A DNA stretch of 36,230 nucleotides from an uncultured Bacteroidales bacterium (GTDB lineage: Bacteria; Bacteroidota; Bacteroidia; Bacteroidales; UBA932): NCBI GenBank assembly GCA_944322925.1, contig CALUQM010000023.1, forward strand, positions 1-36,230, read 5' to 3'. Positions 17,082-36,230 of the stretch are shown here, piece by piece. The notes under the pieces were generated by a model, which did no database searches, had not been told where the DNA came from, and saw only the letters and a program-made list of their open reading frames with translations. The position numbers and the translations under genes were made by a program. Each line of letters starts with the position of its first letter. Positions within the stretch are counted from its first letter, which is position 1.

Positions 17082-19463
17082 TTATAATATTCCAGTCACG
17101 GACAGCCTGAAGATTTCGGCAGCGGCGCACAGGAAAGCTCCGGTCCCGTAAATCTGGTTGCTCTTTTTCTCGAGTTTTTTCGGAGACGACCCTACCGGCT
17201 GCACCCAGCACAGCTTGCCTTCAGTATCGACAGCCGATACAAGGGCTTTCCAGCCTTTTTCCACTACAGGAAGATATGTATCCCGGTCCAGATATCCTGC
17301 ATTGATTCCATAGGCAAGAGCATAGACGAAAAGTCCCGTTCCGCTCGTTTCAGGCTGCGGATACGCCTCCGGATCGAGCAGACTTGTCCTCCAGAAACCG
17401 TCAGGCTGCTGCAGTCCCGCAATCCTGGCACTCATTGTACGGAAAAGATCTTCATACCACGGTCTGTATTTCCTGTCAGACTCTGGAATATTCTTCAGGA
17501 TTTCGGCAAGGCCGGCAAGAACCCATCCGTTTCCGCGGCTCCAGAACACCTTTTCGCCGTTGGCCTCGCGCATCGGAATGAACTTGCTGTCGCGCCAGAA
17601 CAGATTTTCTTCTTCGTCATAAAGTTGTGCCGCGGAAGCCTTGTACTCATTGTCCGCGAATTTCATGAAACTCCTGTCCCCGGTAATATTCCACAGACGG
17701 ACGAAGACAGCAGGGGCCATATAAAGGGCGTCGCACCACCACCAGCGGTCGCTGCGGCCCAGAGTATTGTCGATATTCGGAGCAGGAGGATTGGAAACGA
17801 TCCACTCCAGCCTCGCAAGAGTGGGTACAAGCATGTTTTCCCTGCCTTCCGTCATGAACATGTCAAGATATGTCTGGCCGACACAGATATCGTCGGCATT
17901 GTACATCCTGTCCTCGAGCTGCCATTTTTCTCCGTCCAGGATTCCGGAAAGAAAATCCAGTTGCTGCCGCGAGCCGGACACCGACGCCCAGTCGAACATC
18001 CCTGCATACAGGACACCCGCCCTCCAGTCTCTCCTGTTGTCTCTTGTACGCGGGGTTTCCTTCCAGTCCCTCATCTGCCACGCGAAAACTTTGTCGGCGA
18101 CAGCCGCCACGGATGCAGTATCCAGAGACGCATCCATCGGATCGGCCACCCTGTTTATTCTTATGGCCGACTCGTATGCCCTGAAACCAGGATATCTGTA
18201 ATTGTACATCCACAGCAGGTTCGGACTGCCTTCCGGGCTGTCCCTTATGACGAAAGGACGCACGTTGTCTCTGGTCGAGCCTTCCGTAACCCATGAAGTC
18301 GTCCACTCTCCTGAATCCGTCAGAGTCCACTTCCCTATCTCGAAAACATTATTGACAGGGACCGACGCATATACGGTCCGGGGATCGCCGTGGTCGATAT
18401 AGACTCCTGCCGAGTAGTTGTTTTCTTTCTCTATGAGATTCTTGTCATTATAGTCGTTGCGCATGAACCACTGGCCGGCATCCGTGATCTTTATGTTTTC
18501 CCACACGGAACCTGTCCATCTTGCATACCAGTATGAGTGCCTGTTGTCCGCATCGCTGAAGCGGGCATATACCAGAACAGGATTTCCGTCACCGCCGACA
18601 GCCACGTCCCATATCCATGCCTTGTCGAAAGTCTGCGAGGCGTCGTACACCTTGTCGGCCATGTCGGGATAGACCGTAGAAAGACCTTCGGAAACAATGG
18701 TGCCGTCCGCCTTGCGGAAAGCTCCGTCTTCATACATAAGGAAATAAATCGAATTCGTCGGTTCGTTCCTCGGATGACCGTCCGTGAATGCCAGATAGAT
18801 CCTGTCAGCGCCATTGCCTGCCACCTTCATGTACGGACGGCCGCCGGCATTTCTGCCCGGCCTTTTCCCGACTACGGTCACAGGTTCGCTCCATGTCTTC
18901 AGATCGTCAGACGTTACGACGCACGGCTTGAAGTTCTGTCCTCTGAAAAAAAGCCAGTATTTAGCGCACCCCCCACCGTCGAGAAAAACCGGGTTCGTGT
19001 AACAGTAACCCCTGTTCCCTTCGATCCGGGGTTCTATCAGCGAAATATCTTCCCATTCCGAAATGTCGCAGGGTCTCCGTGATACCGTATAATATATCGG
19101 CGAAGGACCGTGGGCGGAAAAGAATATCGCGATACGCCTGTCCGGCAATGCCATTACCGACGGCGCCGCATGGTCATCGTACTGCAGGCTGTCGAACACT
19201 TTTGTCTTTTCAGATTCGGCTGTCCGCGGATCGTATGAAAAGGCCCAGATATTTCCCTGGCTGTCCACATATCCGCCATATACGACTCCGTCTACATAGA
19301 CGGCCCTCGGGTCCGAGAACCAGCACCATGCCCCGTCACCGGTCACGAAATCATAGTCTTCCGCATAATGACTTCCGTCCGGATCAGCTGCCTGGGAAGC
19401 CGCAGCAGAAAACGCCGTCAGACATATCGGGACAAGAAACAGAAAAAACCTGATAATTTTCAT
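17082..19463 (-). CDS. BNR_4 beta-propeller (PL24/PL25-like) fused to GH105 unsaturated uronyl hydrolase
   Basis: 793 residues from MKIIRFFLFLV; an upstream Met adds 24 residues that break the signal peptide. Residues about 35-440 look like a BNR_4 seven-bladed propeller, the fold of PL24/PL25 ulvan lyases. His98 (DDHAAPS) and His118 (SAHGP) are 20 residues apart, which is the spacing I recall for the catalytic histidines of a PL25 enzyme. Tyr153/Tyr155 and Arg174 follow at plausible distances. Residues about 450-790 are a GH105 (alpha/alpha)6 barrel: Asp524/525 (YNADDICVGQ), Asp578 (WCDALYMAP) and WSRGNGW, matching the YteR-type catalytic Asp pair by spacing. A lyase makes the 4,5-unsaturated uronate that GH105 removes, so the fusion is functionally coherent. 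First gene of the PUL operon. Lyase activity is inferred; the propeller could instead be binding-only or a different enzyme. Confidence 0.82.
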   Translation of the reverse strand: MKIIRFFLFLVPICLTAFSAAASQAADPDGSHYAEDYDFVTGDGAWCWFSDPRAVYVDGVVYGGYVDSQGNIWAFSYDPRTAESEKTKVFDSLQYDDHAAPSVMALPDRRIAIFFSAHGPSPIYYTVSRRPCDISEWEDISLIEPRIEGNRGYCYTNPVFLDGGGCAKYWLFFRGQNFKPCVVTSDDLKTWSEPVTVVGKRPGRNAGGRPYMKVAGNGADRIYLAFTDGHPRNEPTNSIYFLMYEDGAFRKADGTIVSEGLSTVYPDMADKVYDASQTFDKAWIWDVAVGGDGNPVLVYARFSDADNRHSYWYARWTGSVWENIKITDAGQWFMRNDYNDKNLIEKENNYSAGVYIDHGDPRTVYASVPVNNVFEIGKWTLTDSGEWTTSWVTEGSTRDNVRPFVIRDSPEGSPNLLWMYNYRYPGFRAYESAIRINRVADPMDASLDTASVAAVADKVFAWQMRDWKETPRTRDNRRDWRAGVLYAGMFDWASVSGSRQQLDFLSGILDGEKWQLEDRMYNADDICVGQTYLDMFMTEGRENMLVPTLARLEWIVSNPPAPNIDNTLGRSDRWWWCDALYMAPAVFVRLWNITGDRSFMKFADNEYKASAAQLYDEEENLFWRDSKFIPMREANGEKVFWSRGNGWVLAGLAEILKNIPESDRKYRPWYEDLFRTMSARIAGLQQPDGFWRTSLLDPEAYPQPETSGTGLFVYALAYGINAGYLDRDTYLPVVEKGWKALVSAVDTEGKLCWVQPVGSSPKKLEKKSNQIYGTGAFLCAAAEIFRLSVTGIL

Positions 19464-19513
19464 ACTCTCTGATGTTTGCCATAAACAATCGGCCACACGG
19501 CCAATACCGCTAT

Positions 19514-19521
19514 CAAAGATA
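19514..19521 (-). promoter_or_regulatory. Predicted -7 box of the PUL operon promoter
   Basis: On the minus strand the box reads TATCTTTG, an exact match to the Bacteroidetes -7 consensus TAnnTTTG. It lies 51 bp upstream of the chosen start of the propeller-GH105 gene, implying a leader of about 40-45 nt. I do not see a convincing -33 TTTG. The leader contains a small GGCC/GGCC hairpin. It is the only good promoter-like box seen before this eight-gene operon. Confidence 0.5.
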
Positions 19522-19590
19522 TGGAATACACGCAACGATTGCGGGTGGTTTTTCTTTCAATTATTGGTTAAAATTCATCTAAAGGGGAAA

Positions 19591-23048: not shown

Positions 23049-23118
23049 AATGAAAAATAATGTAAAAACTAACACCAATCATTCATTTTATACCTATTTT
23101 TATTCAAATTTTGACAAT

Positions 23119-24030
23119 ATGGTAACGGAGCTTCTGAAGAAATACATCTGGCTCGTACAGAAATTCATCACGGCCGGGGAAAGGGGGCTGAGTCTTCCGG
23201 AAATACAGGGAGACTGGAAGCGGAAATTCGGCACGGAATATCCGCGGCGCACTTTCAACAATCACCGCGAAGCGGTATATGAAGTTTTCGGCATAGAGAT
23301 AGAATGCGACAGAAGTTCCAACAGGTATCTCATACGGCACGGCGATGACATTTCTGACAAGGATGCGAACACAGGCTGGCTGATAGACACTTTCACTGTA
23401 AACAGTATGGTCCCGCTCGCAAGGGAAAGGCTTTCGGGACGGGTTTCCGTAGAAAACATCCCTTCCGGACGCAAATATCTCGCACCGCTTATGAACGCCA
23501 TGCAGGAAAACAATATTGTGGAAATCTCCTACAGGAAATACGGGGCGGCCGCCCCGGATCTCCGCCATGTCCGTCCATACGGAATAAAGGAATTCTCCCT
23601 GAGGTGGTATCTCGTAGGATGGGCTGAAGAAAGGGCCTCATGCCGGGTATATGCCCTGGACAGGATAGAACGGATGAAAATTCTTCCCGAAAGATTCGAC
23701 ATGCCTGCCGGATTCGACATCGATACCATGTTCGCGACATCTTTCGGCAGCTACCTTTCATCGGAGCCCGGGCAGAAAATCGTTTTCAGGGCATACGGCA
23801 AGGAAGCCTCCTATATCAGGGATCTTCCACTGCACCACACCCAAACAGTAGAGAAAGAAGATGGAAATTCGACAACTTTTTCGATATTTGTATCCCCGAA
23901 CACAAGCCTTTTCCTGGAATTTCTCCGGCACGGGGCGGGAATCGAGGTCCTGTCCCCGCCGCATATAAGAGAAAAAATGAAGGATGTGACCGGTGAAATG
24001 AACGGATTATACAATAAAAGCATTCTATAA
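23119..24030 (+). CDS. WYL-domain transcriptional regulator
   Basis: 303 residues from the Met that begins MVTELLKKYIW. The open frame extends 23 codons further upstream, but that extension is Asn/Thr/Phe-rich and overlaps the likely promoter. Residues about 1-80 form an HTH-like N-terminal domain (LSLPEIQGDWKRKFG, PRRTFNNHREAVYEVFGI). Residues about 120-225 are a WYL domain, shown by HVRPYGIKEFSLRWYLVGW and RVYALDRIERM, followed by a WCX-like C-terminal region. WYL regulators sense ligands, often nucleotides or nucleic acids. It is divergent from the sulfatase operon and 16 bp ahead of the peptidase gene. It is the only intact transcription factor in the window. Confidence 0.88.
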   Translation: MVTELLKKYIWLVQKFITAGERGLSLPEIQGDWKRKFGTEYPRRTFNNHREAVYEVFGIEIECDRSSNRYLIRHGDDISDKDANTGWLIDTFTVNSMVPLARERLSGRVSVENIPSGRKYLAPLMNAMQENNIVEISYRKYGAAAPDLRHVRPYGIKEFSLRWYLVGWAEERASCRVYALDRIERMKILPERFDMPAGFDIDTMFATSFGSYLSSEPGQKIVFRAYGKEASYIRDLPLHHTQTVEKEDGNSTTFSIFVSPNTSLFLEFLRHGAGIEVLSPPHIREKMKDVTGEMNGLYNKSIL

Positions 24031-30003: not shown

Positions 30004-30897
30004 ATGAAGAAAGCATACGTTTTTCCCGGACAGGGCTCACAGTTCCCCGGGATGGCAAAAGACCTTTATGAGTCTGACGCCCGCGCCAAGGAAATGCTCG
30101 AAAAGGCGAATGAAATTCTCGGGTTCAGAATAACGGACATCATGTTCAACGGAACGCCCGAGGAGCTCAAGGCAACCAAAGTTACCCAGCCTGCAGTATT
30201 CCTGCATTCAGTCGTACTGGCAAAATGCTATGAAGGCTTTGCTCCGGACATGGTTGCCGGACATTCTCTCGGCGAATTTTCAGCATTGGCAGCAGCAGGA
30301 GCAATGGATTTCGAAGATGCACTCAAACTCGTATCCATCAGGGCTCAGGCCATGCAGAAAGCCTGCGAAATCAAGCCGTCTACCATGGCCGCAATCATAG
30401 CTCTCCCTACCGAGAAAGTCGAAGAAATATGCGCGACATGCTCAGGTGTCGTCGTTCCTGCAAACTACAACTGCGACGGACAAATAGTAATATCGGGTGA
30501 AATCGATGCCATCAATGAGGCTTGCGAGAAAATGAAGGCCGCAGGTGCAAAGCGCGCACTCATCCTTCAGGTCGGAGGAGCATTCCACTCCCCTCTCATG
30601 GAACCTGCCCGCGAGGAACTTGCCAAAGCTATCGAAACCACTTCGTTCAAGGTACCTGTCTGCCCTGTCTATCAGAATGTTACTTCTATGCCGTCTACCG
30701 ATCCCGACACCATCAAGAAGAATCTGCTCGCGCAGCTGACTTCTCCTGTCAAGTGGACTCAGAGCGTAAAGAACATGATTGCAGACGGAGCAGGATATTT
30801 CATGGAAATCGGTCCGGGAACAGTGCTTCAGGGCCTCATCAAGAAGATTGCAGGCGATACCGTCACCATAGAAGGCATCAGCGCCCTTGGCAAATAA
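30004..30897 (+). CDS. fabD: Malonyl-CoA:ACP transacylase
   Basis: 297 residues, the normal length. It loads malonyl groups from CoA onto acyl carrier protein for fatty-acid synthesis in the cytosol. It has FPGQGSQFPGMAKDLY at the N-terminus and the nucleophile Ser88 in GHSLGEFSAL. It also has the conserved Arg in SIRAQAMQ, the catalytic His in GGAFHSPLM, and the ending segment MEIGPGTVLQGLIKKI. It begins 22 bp after the tRNA-Arg gene and may share its promoter. Base composition and codon use look ordinary. Confidence 0.96.
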   Translation: MKKAYVFPGQGSQFPGMAKDLYESDARAKEMLEKANEILGFRITDIMFNGTPEELKATKVTQPAVFLHSVVLAKCYEGFAPDMVAGHSLGEFSALAAAGAMDFEDALKLVSIRAQAMQKACEIKPSTMAAIIALPTEKVEEICATCSGVVVPANYNCDGQIVISGEIDAINEACEKMKAAGAKRALILQVGGAFHSPLMEPAREELAKAIETTSFKVPVCPVYQNVTSMPSTDPDTIKKNLLAQLTSPVKWTQSVKNMIADGAGYFMEIGPGTVLQGLIKKIAGDTVTIEGISALGK

Positions 30898-31238: not shown

Positions 31239-32861
31239 CTAATTTTCAAGATATGATTCATAATCGGACGGATTTATCCATCCGGTGGATTTCCACGGCT
31301 GGGCAATCTCTCCGCTGACGACTTTCTCGTAGAAATCCCACTTGTCAGGACTGTCGAACGGATATCTGTCGAAGACATCCCCGTCATCGCCCATCCTCGG
31401 GTCATTCTGTCCGGCAAGGCGGCTTTTCAGTTCGGAAGACAGTTCCTCCACGACAGTCCTGAAGGCAGTATCTTCAGCAAGATTGTCCATGCAGTACGGG
31501 TCGTGCGCCAGATCGTACAGTTCATATTCAGGCCGCAGACCGAAAGACAATTGCCACAGGCCGGTATCCGTCCCCTCCCGGTGCATGTTCAGAATTGCTG
31601 TCTTTGTCGGAGATCCGTCCACATCCATATATCCGGTTTCCGGATTTCCCGCAGGCATGAGTGCAGGTTTCAGATTCCATATCAGCATCATGTCGTCCCG
31701 GATTATCGAACGTATCGGATATCCCTGGTTGCCCGGCCTTCCATAGTCGTCCCGCTCTCTTCCGAGCAGTATTGTGCGCCTTTTTTCCACCTCGCTCTCC
31801 GGAACATTATCTTCCAGAAATCCCCTGAGACTTGTTCCTGACATTTCAAGCATGCCTGCATCCATGCCGTCTGCTCCGGCCATATCCAGAATGGTGGGAG
31901 CGATATCTATGAAACTGACGTAAGAGTCGACGGATCTGCCGGGATTGACTATGCCGTCGATCCACATCATCGCGCAAGGCATGTGCGTGGAGTATTCATA
32001 ATTGTTGGCCTTGCAGCGCGGAAACGGCATCCCGTTGTCTGAAGTCACAATGACAAGGGTATTCGACAACTGTCCCCTTTTTTCAAGTTCGGCAAGCATC
32101 TTTCCGATCTGCGAATCGAAATATTCTATTTCATATCCGTAATCGAGCATGTCGGTCCTTGTCTCTTCATTATCGGCCCAGAACGGAGGAACCTCGTCTA
32201 TTTCATCCAAAGACCTGCCTCCGAGCCCTGTACCGGATCCGTAAGCATATTTTCTGTGAGGCTCATGACTGCCGAACCAGAAAAACCACGGACGGCTGCC
32301 GCCGTTGTCATCGAGGAAATTCCTGAAATTTTCGGCATAGTCGCATTTGTTTATCGCCTTTGTAGGAGGAGTACACTTCTCGGACTGGTACGGTCTGCCT
32401 GTCAGCTGCCTCGGCTTGCCGTCCGCAATGCCCGGATTGCCCGGTCCCCAGCCTTTCCCCGTACAGGCCACATCGTAGCCGGATTCGGAAAGCACTTCGG
32501 TAAAAACCTTTATGTCCGTCGGAAAGTTGCAGATATGGTTTCCAGCTTCCTTCAGCTGCCATGAATACCTGCCGGTCAGCAATATGGCACGGGAAGGCGC
32601 AGACTTGGCGTTCGGAGTATAACATCTGCCAAAACATATTCCGTCATTCGCTATCCTGTCGAAATTGGGCGTGGAAACCCATTTGCAACCCGAATTGGAA
32701 AAATGATGGAACGAGGCGTCGTCAGCTATGCAGAACAGGATATTCGGCCTGGTCCCGCTGTCGGGAGCCTGACCTTCCGCAGCATTTGCGGTGTTCCCTC
32801 CCGAATACATAAGGGCAGCGGGAACTGACAGGAGTGTAAAAATTTGTCTTTTTGTTTTCAT
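31239..32861 (-). CDS. S1-type sulfatase, sulfamidase-like (S1_8-like)
   Basis: 540 residues. A signal peptide without a clear lipobox ends near NTANAAEG, so the enzyme is probably periplasmic. Motifs: NILFCIADDASFHHF (the variant metal-site segment seen in N-sulfoglucosamine sulfohydrolase-like enzymes), Ser87-Ala88-Pro89-Ser90-Arg91, LLTGRYSWQLKEAGNH, GKGWGPGNPG, FGSHEPHRKY, TSDNGMPFPR and LYDLAHDP. The FxIADDAS and TGRYSWQ features suggest S1_8, a subfamily I recall from heparan- and ulvan-degrading loci, but the subfamily call is from memory. It lies 7 bp after the chimeric ORF and 10 bp before the sulfatase stub. Confidence 0.88.
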   Translation of the reverse strand: MKTKRQIFTLLSVPAALMYSGGNTANAAEGQAPDSGTRPNILFCIADDASFHHFSNSGCKWVSTPNFDRIANDGICFGRCYTPNAKSAPSRAILLTGRYSWQLKEAGNHICNFPTDIKVFTEVLSESGYDVACTGKGWGPGNPGIADGKPRQLTGRPYQSEKCTPPTKAINKCDYAENFRNFLDDNGGSRPWFFWFGSHEPHRKYAYGSGTGLGGRSLDEIDEVPPFWADNEETRTDMLDYGYEIEYFDSQIGKMLAELEKRGQLSNTLVIVTSDNGMPFPRCKANNYEYSTHMPCAMMWIDGIVNPGRSVDSYVSFIDIAPTILDMAGADGMDAGMLEMSGTSLRGFLEDNVPESEVEKRRTILLGRERDDYGRPGNQGYPIRSIIRDDMMLIWNLKPALMPAGNPETGYMDVDGSPTKTAILNMHREGTDTGLWQLSFGLRPEYELYDLAHDPYCMDNLAEDTAFRTVVEELSSELKSRLAGQNDPRMGDDGDVFDRYPFDSPDKWDFYEKVVSGEIAQPWKSTGWINPSDYESYLEN

Positions 32862-32868
32862 CAGCGTA

Positions 32869-33813
32869 TCAGTTATCAGTATTGTTCGACATGTTTTCAG
32901 AATCTCTGGTCTGGCTCGGCAGATATCCGAATTCTTCCTTGTATGCTTTGGTAAAACCGCTGTGGGAACGGATACCTATTTCCCAGATCACTTCCTTTAT
33001 CGAATAATTGCCGGATGCCAGAAGATGACGCGCATGGTTCAGTCTTATACCCTTGATGAAGGCGGAAGGAGACTTCCCGATTATCCTCTGGAATTCCCTG
33101 GTAAGGTGTACGCGGCTGATACCCATTTCATTGCTTAGGGCCGCTACCGAGAATTCCTCATCAGACATTTTACTGTATATTATCTCACGCGCCTTGTTGA
33201 TGAATGCTTCGTCCTTGTTCCTTACCGGGACATTTCCCCTGTCGTGAGCGGCCGTCTCCGATGCCAGGTTTTCTTTGCTCAGATAATACTGCGCCAGTAT
33301 GTTCCCGATCTTCATGAGAAGGATGTGGGGATTGAAGGGTTTTGTAATATAGTCCACGGCTCCGGTCCTGTATCCGGCCGAATTCAACACGTCGGCGATA
33401 GTCGTTTCGGATTTCGGGAGGAACCTTCTGTTCGGAATGTGACCGGGATCCGTTGCCAGCATCTCGTATTCTCCCGTTCCGAACGGGTCTTCATTACGGC
33501 TGTTTATATGGCGGGTAATACCTTGTTTTACAGGGTATTTTCCCGTAAGCAGGGCTGCTCTGGAAGGACTTGAAGTCGGAGAAGGAACATAGGCATTCAC
33601 GAAATTTACAGACTGGGAGGCAAGCCTGTCTATATTCGGAGTATTGAACGAACTGTTCCTGAATCCGAGATCATTGTAGCCGAGGTCATCTACGAAGATT
33701 ACAATAAAATTGGGACGGACCTTACCATCCGGCCGTCCGGCTTCCTTCGCAAAGGCTGAATCAGCAATACAGCCCAACATGGCGGCGCACTGAATAATTG
33801 GAATTATCTTCAT
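32869..33813 (-). CDS. Chimeric ORF: sulfatase N-terminus joined in frame to response-regulator end and AraC-type HTH
   Basis: 314 residues from MKIIPIIQCAAM, which gives a signal peptide ending near DSAFAKEAG; an upstream Met at 33897 adds 28 residues and lies before a promoter-like box. Residues about 32-150 are a sulfatase N-terminus: PNFIVIFVDDLGYND, Ser81-Ser82-Pro83-Ser84-Arg85, LLTGKYPVKQG, SETTIADVLNSAGYRTG. At about residue 151 (near 33360) it switches without a stop to DYITKPFNPHILLMKI, the last strand and helix of a REC domain with its conserved Lys. An AraC-type HTH follows (ALSNEMGISRVHLTREFQ, IGIRSHSGFTKAYKEEFG). That is the C-terminal end of a hybrid two-component PUL regulator. 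The sulfatase lacks about 300 residues and the regulator lacks its sensor and kinase. A signal peptide would prevent DNA binding, so the full product is probably non-functional; an internal start could still make an HTH protein. Confidence 0.85.
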   Translation of the reverse strand: MKIIPIIQCAAMLGCIADSAFAKEAGRPDGKVRPNFIVIFVDDLGYNDLGFRNSSFNTPNIDRLASQSVNFVNAYVPSPTSSPSRAALLTGKYPVKQGITRHINSRNEDPFGTGEYEMLATDPGHIPNRRFLPKSETTIADVLNSAGYRTGAVDYITKPFNPHILLMKIGNILAQYYLSKENLASETAAHDRGNVPVRNKDEAFINKAREIIYSKMSDEEFSVAALSNEMGISRVHLTREFQRIIGKSPSAFIKGIRLNHARHLLASGNYSIKEVIWEIGIRSHSGFTKAYKEEFGYLPSQTRDSENMSNNTDN

Positions 33814-33829: not shown

Positions 33830-33837
33830 TAAAGATA
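33830..33837 (-). promoter_or_regulatory. Near-consensus -7 box before the chimeric ORF
   Basis: The minus strand reads TATCTTTA, one base from TAnnTTTG, 16 bp upstream of the ATG at 33813. It would drive the chimeric ORF, the intact sulfatase and the stub, and supports the downstream start. The remaining divergent gap 33838-33989 shows no other clear signal. Confidence 0.3.
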
Positions 33838-33989
33838 CATCCAAACGGCAGCCTGCCTCTTGCAGATTCGTAACATGGATTGTCCATAAAGAAACATGGT
33901 GTTTATGAAACGAATAAAGCAATTATTGGAGCATATCTGAAACTGATAGTTGAAGTTCCGGGCTTAATTTACGGAAAATTTTACATGAA

Positions 33990-35825
33990 ATGAGACACCT
34001 TGTTTTATCCGGCATGTTTTTTCTGTACGCAGCGATATGCGGGCATGCCGCCGTGACCGTTTATGTCGATGATGTCGCACCGGAAAATTGCCGCGACTAT
34101 ACACCTGTGGTCCAGGATATTCTCGACAGCCATCCGGAAGGAAATGTCAGAATCGTATTCAGCGGACGCGAATATCATTTCCACAGGACTTACGCCAAAG
34201 GCAGGTATCATGAAATCACTAATCACGACAACGGGTACAAGTATTTCGCATTCATGCTGGAAAACATGAAGAACGTGGAAATAGACGGGAACGGGGCTGA
34301 ATTCATATTCCATGGTGTAATGACACCTGTACTCATCGAAAACTCGGAAAATATCACAATACGCAACCTCGCCATCGACTGGGAGGAACCGTTCTTCATC
34401 CAGGGCACGGTAATCAGGTCATATCCTGAAGAAAAGGCTGCCGACATAGAATTTACAGGTTTTTCCAGGATACAGCCGGAAGGGAACCGCCTGAATATCG
34501 TCAGCAATGACAACGAAATGTATTTTCTTGGAGAAAGCATGGTTTTCGACCCCGCTACCGGAGCCGTTGCATACAATGCGCATGCCAGCACTATCGGCGG
34601 CACGAGGGGAAGAACGGCGGAATGCGTCAGGATCAGCGGAAACACGTACCGCGTCAAGGCGGAATTTGCAAAAAAACCTGCCGGGGAAGGCCTCGTATAT
34701 GTATTCAAGGGCCCCAACGGCTCCAACAGGCTGGCTCCTGCGATACACGCGAAATCCTCCTCGGACATCAGCATGGAAGATGTAACCATACACCATGCCG
34801 GCGGAATGGGCTTCATCGCGGAAAAAAGTGAAGACATACACCTGGACAATGTGGACGTACGCCTCAGGGACGGAACGGACAGAATGGTCACTACAACGGC
34901 GGATGCGACACATTTCTGCAATTGCCGAGGAAAAGTCATCATAGAGAACTGCCTGTTCGAAAACATGCTGGATGATGCTGCGAACGTTCACGGAACATAC
35001 CTGAAAGTCGACAGGATTCTGTCCGGGAACAAAGTCCTGGCAAAACTGAACCACCGCCAGCAGTTCGGATATGATTTTGCGGATGCCGGAGACAGAATAA
35101 GGATAGTGGATGCCGTCTCCATTCTCCCGAAAGCAGAAGTTTCCGTAACCTCGTACAGACAGATCAACGAAGTATATGCCGAAATATCCTTTTCGGATGA
35201 CATAAAGGACGACATTGCCGTCGGAGACGGGCTCGAAAATATTTCCTGGTACCCGGAACTGTATTTCAGAAACAATATTGTCAGGAACAACAGAGCCAGG
35301 AGCATTCTTGTCAGCACCGGGAACAAGGCTGTCATCGAAGGGAACACTTTTTCATCGATGATGACATCGATCCTGTTCGAAGGGGACCTGAACCACTGGC
35401 ATGAATCCGGAGCCGTGAACAACGTCATCATCCGCAACAACAGGTTTCTCGACTGCTGCTACGGAGGCAACAACGCCTTTGTAATCTGGATAAACCCGAG
35501 AGTATCAGAAATGCCTGAAGACAAATACTTTGAAAAGAACATAACGATAGAGGACAATATCTTCAACAGCTTCGACAGGCCTGTCGTGTATGCGAAATCG
35601 GTAGACGGACTCATTTTCCGCAACAACAGCATCACCCCGTCCGGGACTTATCCGCAGCTGCGTCCCGACATGCCGGAATTCGACATCGAACATTGCAGGA
35701 ATATCATATTTTCAGGCAACAGGTACAATGGCGACAGTCAGGCCGAAATAAAAATCGACAGCGAGTCCGAAAAAAGCGCCGATTTCCGGAAAAACAGCGG
35801 TTTCGCAGATATCTGCACGGACTAA
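33990..35825 (+). CDS. GH110-like alpha-1,3-galactosidase (parallel beta-helix)
   Basis: 611 residues. A signal peptide ends near GHAAVTVYVDD. The body is a right-handed parallel beta-helix with many VIIRNNRF / ITIEDNIF type coils. The segment HEITNHDNGYKYFAFMLENMKNVEIDGNGAEFIFHG (in parts: HEITNHDN, then VEIDGNGAEFIFHG) and the RNLAIDWEEPFF segment match the N-terminal region of GH110 exo-alpha-galactosidases. Candidate catalytic residues are Asp305 (TADATHF), Asp328 and Asp329 (LDDAANVHGTYL), with a spacing close to what I recall for a characterised GH110. GH110 enzymes remove terminal alpha-1,3-galactose from blood-group-B-type glycans or from carrageenan fragments. It is transcribed divergently from the chimeric ORF. 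Family call is strong, substrate open. Confidence 0.85.
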   Translation: MRHLVLSGMFFLYAAICGHAAVTVYVDDVAPENCRDYTPVVQDILDSHPEGNVRIVFSGREYHFHRTYAKGRYHEITNHDNGYKYFAFMLENMKNVEIDGNGAEFIFHGVMTPVLIENSENITIRNLAIDWEEPFFIQGTVIRSYPEEKAADIEFTGFSRIQPEGNRLNIVSNDNEMYFLGESMVFDPATGAVAYNAHASTIGGTRGRTAECVRISGNTYRVKAEFAKKPAGEGLVYVFKGPNGSNRLAPAIHAKSSSDISMEDVTIHHAGGMGFIAEKSEDIHLDNVDVRLRDGTDRMVTTTADATHFCNCRGKVIIENCLFENMLDDAANVHGTYLKVDRILSGNKVLAKLNHRQQFGYDFADAGDRIRIVDAVSILPKAEVSVTSYRQINEVYAEISFSDDIKDDIAVGDGLENISWYPELYFRNNIVRNNRARSILVSTGNKAVIEGNTFSSMMTSILFEGDLNHWHESGAVNNVIIRNNRFLDCCYGGNNAFVIWINPRVSEMPEDKYFEKNITIEDNIFNSFDRPVVYAKSVDGLIFRNNSITPSGTYPQLRPDMPEFDIEHCRNIIFSGNRYNGDSQAEIKIDSESEKSADFRKNSGFADICTD

Positions 35826-35843: not shown

Positions 35844-36143
35844 TCAGTCAGTTTCAATCTCCGGATGCTTCCCTGCATAACGAATTGTCCATTCCGCTGT
35901 CTCAGGATTGATATCCAGTTCTTCGTTTACAAGCTTGCGCATGAATCCGCACGAATTGCCTATCGATTCCGCCCATGCTTCATAGCTTGCCTGATAAGGC
36001 TTGCGGGCCTCGCCCCGGAATGTCAGATATTGTGGAAAACTGCAGTCAAAGACTGTCTTGCCGTCCAATGCGGACTTTGCCGTCTGCCCGCAAACTGCAT
36101 GCAGGCATCCGAACAAAAGTGCCAATGCCAGAAACTTTCTCAT
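35844..36143 (-). CDS. Short secreted protein of unknown function, possibly 3'-truncated
   Basis: 99 residues with a clear signal peptide (MRKFLALALLFGCLHAVCGQ), then a hydrophilic segment including FDCSFPQYLTFRGEARKPYQ and SCGFMRKLVNEELDINPE. I do not recognise the family. It ends at a TGA 18 bp from the stop of the convergent GH110-like gene. The shape (signal peptide plus about 80 residues, no full domain) fits either a small secreted protein or the stub of a longer enzyme cut at its 3' end. The upstream side runs directly into sequence resembling an insertion-sequence edge. Confidence 0.5.
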   Translation of the reverse strand: MRKFLALALLFGCLHAVCGQTAKSALDGKTVFDCSFPQYLTFRGEARKPYQASYEAWAESIGNSCGFMRKLVNEELDINPETAEWTIRYAGKHPEIETD

Positions 36144-36158
36144 ATTATCGAAGTCATT

Positions 36159-36230
36159 AGTGTCCGGTAAAAAATCGCAAAAGTTCTTTGAAAATATTGA
36201 AGTATAGGTAATTACAAGGATGGGACGAGC
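36159..36230 (+). mobile_element. Possible left edge of an insertion sequence, running off the window
   Basis: The stretch beginning AGTGTCCGGTAAAAAATCGC and continuing with AAAAGTTCTTTG resembles, from memory, the ends of IS4-type elements in Bacteroidales. It is followed by a short A/T-rich leader and an ATG at 36220 that opens MGR(A) on the + strand, a plausible transposase start. Only 11 bases of that frame are in the window. No inverted-repeat partner or target duplication can be seen here. Confidence 0.3.

Follow-up and report, generated by a model that had tools for sequence, protein, structure and literature searches.

An in-frame sulfatase-AraC fusion in an uncultured Bacteroidales bacterium is most likely a deletion-born pseudogene

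Introduction

Can a reading frame that opens as a secreted sulfatase and closes as a DNA-binding regulator be a working gene? One such frame lies on the minus strand of the window, the whole stretch of 36,230 nucleotides analysed here (contig CALUQM010000023.1 of assembly GCA_944322925.1, from an uncultured Bacteroidales bacterium). A first-pass annotation of this DNA had proposed that one deletion fused a sulfatase gene to the adjacent downstream gene of a hybrid two-component regulator (HTCS). Deletion-born fusion pseudogenes are a general class in bacteria, and the fusion in the window is likewise an in-frame join of two same-strand genes at a short shared sequence. We conclude that it is most likely real and belongs to this class; we saw no essential difference, its parents and its retained candidate operator being particular to it.

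Results

A sulfatase N-terminus runs without a stop into the end of an HTCS

The minus-strand frame is open from an ATG at 33897 (342 aa) through to the stop at 32871-32869, and an ATG at 33813 opens a stretch that, judged by eye, resembles a signal peptide. The fused ORF probably starts at 33813 rather than 33897, because the latter ATG sits within the promoter repeat described below. In the following list, the C20 HTCS is an intact HTCS encoded on another contig (C20) of the same genome.

32869..33813, minus strand: fused ORF, 314 aa from Met 33813, stop TGA 32871-32869
33358..33813, minus strand: sulfatase-derived half with a signal-peptide-like N-terminus (by eye), DD and SSPSR, stopping before GKWH
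33559..33573, minus strand: S-S-P-S-R, residues 109-113, read from the sequence
33358..33363, minus strand: junction codons GGA-GCC, the same six bases as at that place in the C20 HTCS
32872..33363, minus strand: HTCS-derived half (receiver end, linker, AraC HTH), 66-68% identical to the C20 HTCS C-terminus
32902..33138, minus strand: complete HTH_18/AraC DNA-binding domain (Pfam), conserved positions retained

A Pfam scan of the fused ORF returned Sulfatase (E 1.2e-19), HTH_18 (E 2.6e-21, residues 254-332; 76.1 bits against a cut-off of 33.6) and HTH_AraC, placing an AraC-type HTH in the fusion. Pfam, the translation and the alignments together bore out the earlier reading of a stop-free run from a sulfatase N-terminus with its maturation motif into the end of a receiver domain plus an AraC HTH, and a two-part origin of the ORF is, judging by these sequences, far beyond chance.

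The change-over falls at residues 179-180 (numbered from ATG 33897), in the codons GGA GCC at 33363-33358. On the 5' side, the residues aligned with sulfatases as far as their GKWH motif; on the 3' side, they aligned with the intact C20 HTCS (GAVDYITKPFNP versus GAVDYIVKPFNP, 66-68% identity), and the 34 residues directly before the junction GA gave a single match to the C20 HTCS. The switch had initially been put near 33360, in a short GA similarity; it can now be placed at GGA GCC, bases that the C20 HTCS shares. Judged from the C20 HTCS, both parents seem to have had only about six to perhaps a dozen bases in common at the join (GCAGGAGCC versus ACCGGAGCC). A junction 30-mer had no match in viral contigs.

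The sulfatase part comprises residues 29-180, numbered from ATG 33897. We take SSPSR to be the serine-type formylglycine maturation motif (C/S-x-P-S-R) and DD to be the metal motif. In an alignment of 42 sulfatases with frames of 380 to 700 aa, P111 was kept in 41 and R113 in all 42, and the maturation motif is present in the fusion. The fusion deviated at two of the 17 columns conserved to at least 90% in these sulfatases, namely G96S and K180 at the join, where all 42 relatives have K and the fusion has A; the GKWH motif is absent. Also missing are the 298-309 residues that run from GKWH onward in the three nearest sulfatases (genomes G488, G725 and G574), which are 45-46% identical to the sulfatase half. 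At 1e-26, this half was matched in three of the 353 other genomes of an order sample, the same three, and at 1e-20 in six of the 399 other genomes of a genus sample. With type I sulfatases (PF00884, S-type, Bacteroidales polysaccharide utilization loci) the fusion shares the signal-peptide-like start, DD, SSPSR and the sequence before GKWH, but it has neither GKWH nor the later part of the fold, and because of this its product should be dead as a sulfatase.

The HTCS part (residues 179-342 in the same numbering) holds the receiver end beginning with GAVDYITKPF, then a linker and an AraC HTH that is complete. Of the receiver, roughly the final sixth survives, from position 1141 of the Pfam receiver match 1049-1159 in the C20 HTCS; the phospho-acceptor Asp is missing. 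Pfam found no sensor, HisKA or HATPase domain in the fusion, and in the C20 HTCS it found Reg_prop, Y_Y_Y, HisKA and HATPase_c all present. The HTCS half scored 216.5 bits with the C20 HTCS versus 101.5 bits with the best match outside the genome in a 400-genome genus sample, and at 1e-30 it had no match in the other 353 genomes of the order sample. It deviated at two of the 17 columns conserved to at least 80% in 77 HTCS-like proteins (frames of 500 aa or more), as did the intact C20 copy. The DNA-reading helices of the fusion and the C20 HTCS are identical at 14 of 14 and 15 of 16 positions, and among 77 HTCS-like proteins the others reached at most 8 and 9. Between the fusion and the C20 HTCS, dN was 0.30; dS was not computable, so dN/dS was unusable.

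Bacteroidetes HTCSs have a propeller sensor, Y_Y_Y, HisKA, HATPase and a receiver Asp, whereas the fusion has none of these. We share the first-pass view that a working secreted sulfatase-regulator is unlikely, given that GKWH, sensor, kinase and phospho-acceptor are lacking and that the HTH is on an exported protein, which for that reason cannot reach DNA. As far as sequence can tell, the product is almost certainly without function as a sulfatase or as a regulator.

The sulfatase half seems to sit in its native place

Three neighboring genes set the context of the fusion.

31239..32861, minus strand: intact sulfatase, beginning 7 bases past the fusion stop, with a 66% homologue in G298
33990..35825, plus strand: GH110-type alpha-galactosidase homologue, divergent from the fusion, with GLAA-B and beta-helix domains (Pfam)
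30004..30897, plus strand: fabD, left boundary of a variable segment

We take GH110 to be the family number of the gene at 33990..35825. A GH110-type homologue was found in all three loci of the nearest sulfatases: in G725 it is 39% identical and directly adjoins the sulfatase, in G488 it is 35% identical and lies about 2.3 kb from the sulfatase, and in G574 it lies about 10 kb off and is a cut piece, 42% identical across 108 residues. Because each of the three loci carries such a homologue, the sulfatase half seems to sit in its native place. In these GH110-linked relatives, there was no HTCS match as the gene next after the sulfatase; in G725, about 4.4 kb ahead of the GH110 gene, there is an 859-aa ORF resembling the HTCS sensor part (25%).

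The sulfatase at 31239-32861 is probably co-transcribed with the fusion. On contig C24 of G099 it has a 43% homologue; downstream of this homologue, on the same strand, come a second sulfatase and next an HTCS, and the sulfatase-HTCS gap is 55 bases measured between stop-to-stop frames and 90 measured from stop to ATG. Contig C20 of G099 carries a run of sulfatases and then a same-strand HTCS (115 bases between stop-to-stop frames), and G410 has a sulfatase run and then an HTCS, apparently the same gene set. Among 41 HTCS-like ORFs with flanks, a same-strand sulfatase lay within 600 bases upstream of two and downstream of three. An HTCS directly downstream of a sulfatase thus occurs in the genus, yet is uncommon in the sample. 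An intact sulfatase-HTCS-sulfatase order with close sequence was not found in the sampled genomes of the genus and order. Searching relatives for the two halves separately turned up adjacent sulfatase-HTCS pairs, and not the full ancestral order. This, the modest identity of the closest sulfatases (45-46%) and of the closest HTCS (66-68%), and the occurrence of the fusion in a single genome count against the deletion proposal.

In seven of eight sister fabD loci, the gene after fabD encodes a pyruvate:ferredoxin oxidoreductase, and the eighth contig ends just past fabD. The oxidoreductase gene had no match in the window, and the sulfatase at 31239-32861 had none in the eight sister loci at 1e-10. 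By these comparisons, the segment right of fabD is variable; its right boundary would lie beyond the end of the window's contig at 36230.

Several other genes of the window were noted. A protein family with members at window 35844-36143, L096 4857-6854 and L097 14000-16429 (no Pfam match in two members) is present in three copies in this genome. They lie on C20 and C23, close to HTCS or sulfatase genes, and share about 36% identity with the piece in the window. The gene at 540-2963 encodes Sulfatase and GH43 domains, both nearly full length, in one 807-aa protein (Pfam), and a 76% identical homologue of its sulfatase part is a separate 496-aa frame in G410. At 17082-19535, BNR_4 and GH88 domains are found in one protein, next to two pairs of TonB-receptor-like and SusD-like genes, and a WYL/WCX-domain regulator at 23050-24030 is divergent from two sulfatase genes.

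The promoter retains a candidate HTCS operator

Two features lie upstream of the fusion.

33872..33899, plus strand: direct repeat AACATGG - 14 bases - AACATGG, period 21, candidate HTCS operator
33830..33837, minus strand: TATCTTTA box, one mismatch from the consensus -7 element of Bacteroidetes, separated from the start codon by only 16 bases, a short distance for such an element

The AACATGG pair was spotted by eye in a promoter alignment and tested for significance afterwards: it was the only 7/7 repeat at periods 8-119 in the 176 bases that separate the fusion from its divergent neighbor, and an equal repeat arose in 8 of 1000 dinucleotide shuffles at period 21 and in 21 of 1000 at periods 20-22. 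The authors of PMC3878776 we take to be Ravcheev and colleagues. The HTCS motifs predicted in that paper are reported to be direct repeats spaced, on average, 21 bp apart (PMC3878776). New here is that the promoter retains a perfect AACATGG repeat in this published layout of HTCS operators (PMC3878776); the fusion shares with Bacteroidetes HTCSs the receiver end, the linker, the full AraC HTH and a 21-base direct repeat in the promoter.

The promoter of the C20 HTCS has the same TATCTTTA box, 33 bases from its repeat versus 34 at the fusion, and its AACATAT/AACACGG pair is like the repeat of the fusion at 20 of 28 bases on the same strand. Taken alone, the C20 repeat was not significant (best 5/7, equalled by 407 of 500 shuffles). 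The joint 20/28 match of the two sites was reached in one of 60 shuffles. When the two promoters were aligned with gaps, 3 of 200 shuffles did as well, versus 32 to 194 of 200 for the other five promoter pairs. An operator motif built from these two sites themselves had 28 matches genome-wide with up to one mismatch, close to the 20 of a reversed control, and a third exact match (contig C29) falls within a 745-residue reading frame. With up to two mismatches, the window had 12 occurrences against 4.44 expected, 11 of these occurrences lying inside ORFs, and C20 1-20000 had five against 4.00 expected. The lack of significance of the C20 repeat and these motif counts weaken the idea of an operator common to both promoters. 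Because its reading helices are near-identical to those of the fusion, the C20 HTCS could probably recognize the candidate operator that remains.

One deletion would account for the fusion

Most probably, a single in-frame deletion of about 4.4 kb at GGA GCC joined the sulfatase gene to a downstream HTCS gene on the same strand. Gene contexts in relatives suggest, as the most economical ancestor, a GH110-type gene divergent from a sulfatase - HTCS - sulfatase series. A deletion at the short GGA GCC similarity would have retained about the 5' third of the sulfatase gene and the last 164 codons of the HTCS gene, in frame, at the estimated cost of some 300 sulfatase codons, a short gap and about 1140 HTCS codons. 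It would have left the promoter and its 21-base repeat in place, and the downstream sulfatase, 7 bases behind the fusion, would therefore now be under the promoter of the first sulfatase; the C20 HTCS may drive it. The ancestral gene order, the single event, the size of the deletion and its origin in the cell rather than in the assembly are what we infer. The earlier choice of a single deletion as the simplest reading stands: the contexts in relatives fit, the genome gave no strong orphan of the missing pieces, the matches listed and ORFs compared below gave no second case, and nothing contradictory was found.

The open frame may reflect a one-in-three chance at the join and a recent age, possibly helped by avoidance of polarity on the downstream gene. 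Assuming neutral decay and no indels, a 314-codon open frame would be retained with a probability of 0.28 at 0.05 substitutions per site and lost with 95% probability at about 0.12. Both halves retain conserved positions about as well as their intact relatives. Because these positions and the open frame fit a short neutral decay, the fusion fits a recent event for which selection is not required. The first-pass annotation had named recency and selection as possible reasons for the open frame; the former agrees with the decay estimate, and the latter is not needed as a cause, since recent age suffices.

Assembly error, a selected chimera and an internally started fragment are less probable

We considered whether an assembler could have joined different contigs or strains. 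The genome consists of 78 contigs, is 94.46% complete and presumably comes from a metagenome, all of which would allow such an error. However, the six to perhaps a dozen bases that the parents seem to share at the join are under the usual assembly word sizes, and both flanks of the junction fit one locus. The rest of the genome yielded no strong orphan of either missing piece, sulfatase C-part or HTCS sensor part: its four strong HTCS matches are all long frames (1314, 1341, 1375 and 1435 aa), and the C-part of the G488 sulfatase had 23 matches, in frames of 467-808 aa except for a weak one (E 2.3e-4, 272-aa frame). At 94.46% completeness, this absence of orphan pieces is not proof. Taken together, these observations argue against mis-assembly, which we regard as unlikely.

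A secreted chimera selected for a new function would explain the open frame and the intact parts. Such a protein would pair a partial sulfatase fold without catalytic Lys/His with a DNA-binding domain on an exported protein, and a second genome was not found: among the matches listed for 61 genomes, the window's was the only one with sulfatase motif and HTH together, and of 3144 ORFs (fetched loci and window) the only ones with both halves were copies of the window's own. The same architecture, which the first-pass annotation had said would make the fusion a real family if many unrelated genomes carried it, had no other case in either set, and we rejected a family of sulfatase-HTH fusions. In L054 (Marinoscillum) and L055 (Bacteroides finegoldii), one match spanned both halves; these ORFs are an intact HTCS and then an intact sulfatase, in reverse order, and are not fusions. 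In literature searches, none of the listed titles and abstract openings names a sulfatase-HTH fusion. A single-sequence AlphaFold model of the fusion was too poor for use (mean pLDDT 40); its pLDDT, which stays below 50 almost throughout residues 1-221 of the 314, speaks against the chimera too, weakly so because the model was made without an alignment. We consider a selected chimera scarcely credible.

The fusion might instead be retained because an HTH fragment, started internally, evades export, binds the operator and competes with the C20 HTCS. Candidate starts are ATG 33462, GTG 33357, ATG 33315 and ATG 33168. The in-frame ATG 33462 lies in the sulfatase half, ahead of the junction; a GGGAG stands eight bases upstream of it (by eye), and translation from this ATG would yield 197 aa without a signal peptide. 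Within the HTCS half, no start is preceded by anything similar (by eye). Because of ATG 33462 and its GGGAG, a cytoplasmic HTH fragment is possible, and the retained conserved HTH positions, the reading helices shared with the C20 HTCS and the perfect 21-base repeat are in line with it. Short sites like GGGAG are, however, common by chance, and Bacteroidetes depend little on Shine-Dalgarno sites. From 34050 to 32800 the minus strand has no exact -7 box, and the two boxes with one mismatch, at 33837 (the main promoter) and 33608 (146 bases before ATG 33462), both lack TTG/TTTG at the expected -33 distance, leaving no good internal promoter. Recent age alone also accounts for the conservation. 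Retention for such a fragment thus strikes us as very unlikely, and it is equally doubtful that a sensor-less HTH fragment occupies the surviving repeat and damps or insulates control by the C20 HTCS; if it did, the deletion would have made a newly born competitor regulator through gene loss. Our preferred reading is still the recent deletion-born pseudogene.

A second HTCS remnant was observed in the same genome, on the minus strand of L097 at 18541-18998 (contig C20 end, 38541-38998). Its receiver begins (PDLVISDVMMPGMDG...RTSH) and then breaks off, lacking its second half, and the AraC HTH follows in another frame; this HTH region shows 66% identity with the HTCS of G201 C104. With the fusion, the genome therefore carries two HTCS remnants, alongside four HTCSs whose frames are long.

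Discussion

The fusion appears to be ordinary gene decay, a clean instance of gene loss and not a novel type of protein. For annotators it is a warning that an open frame with two good Pfam matches need not be a working fusion. For the organism, a regulator of a sulfated-sugar locus has seemingly been caught during its loss, with the candidate operator and the HTH intact, and the C20 paralogue could take over from the lost HTCS. The second HTCS remnant hints at an ongoing loss of HTCS regulators in this lineage.
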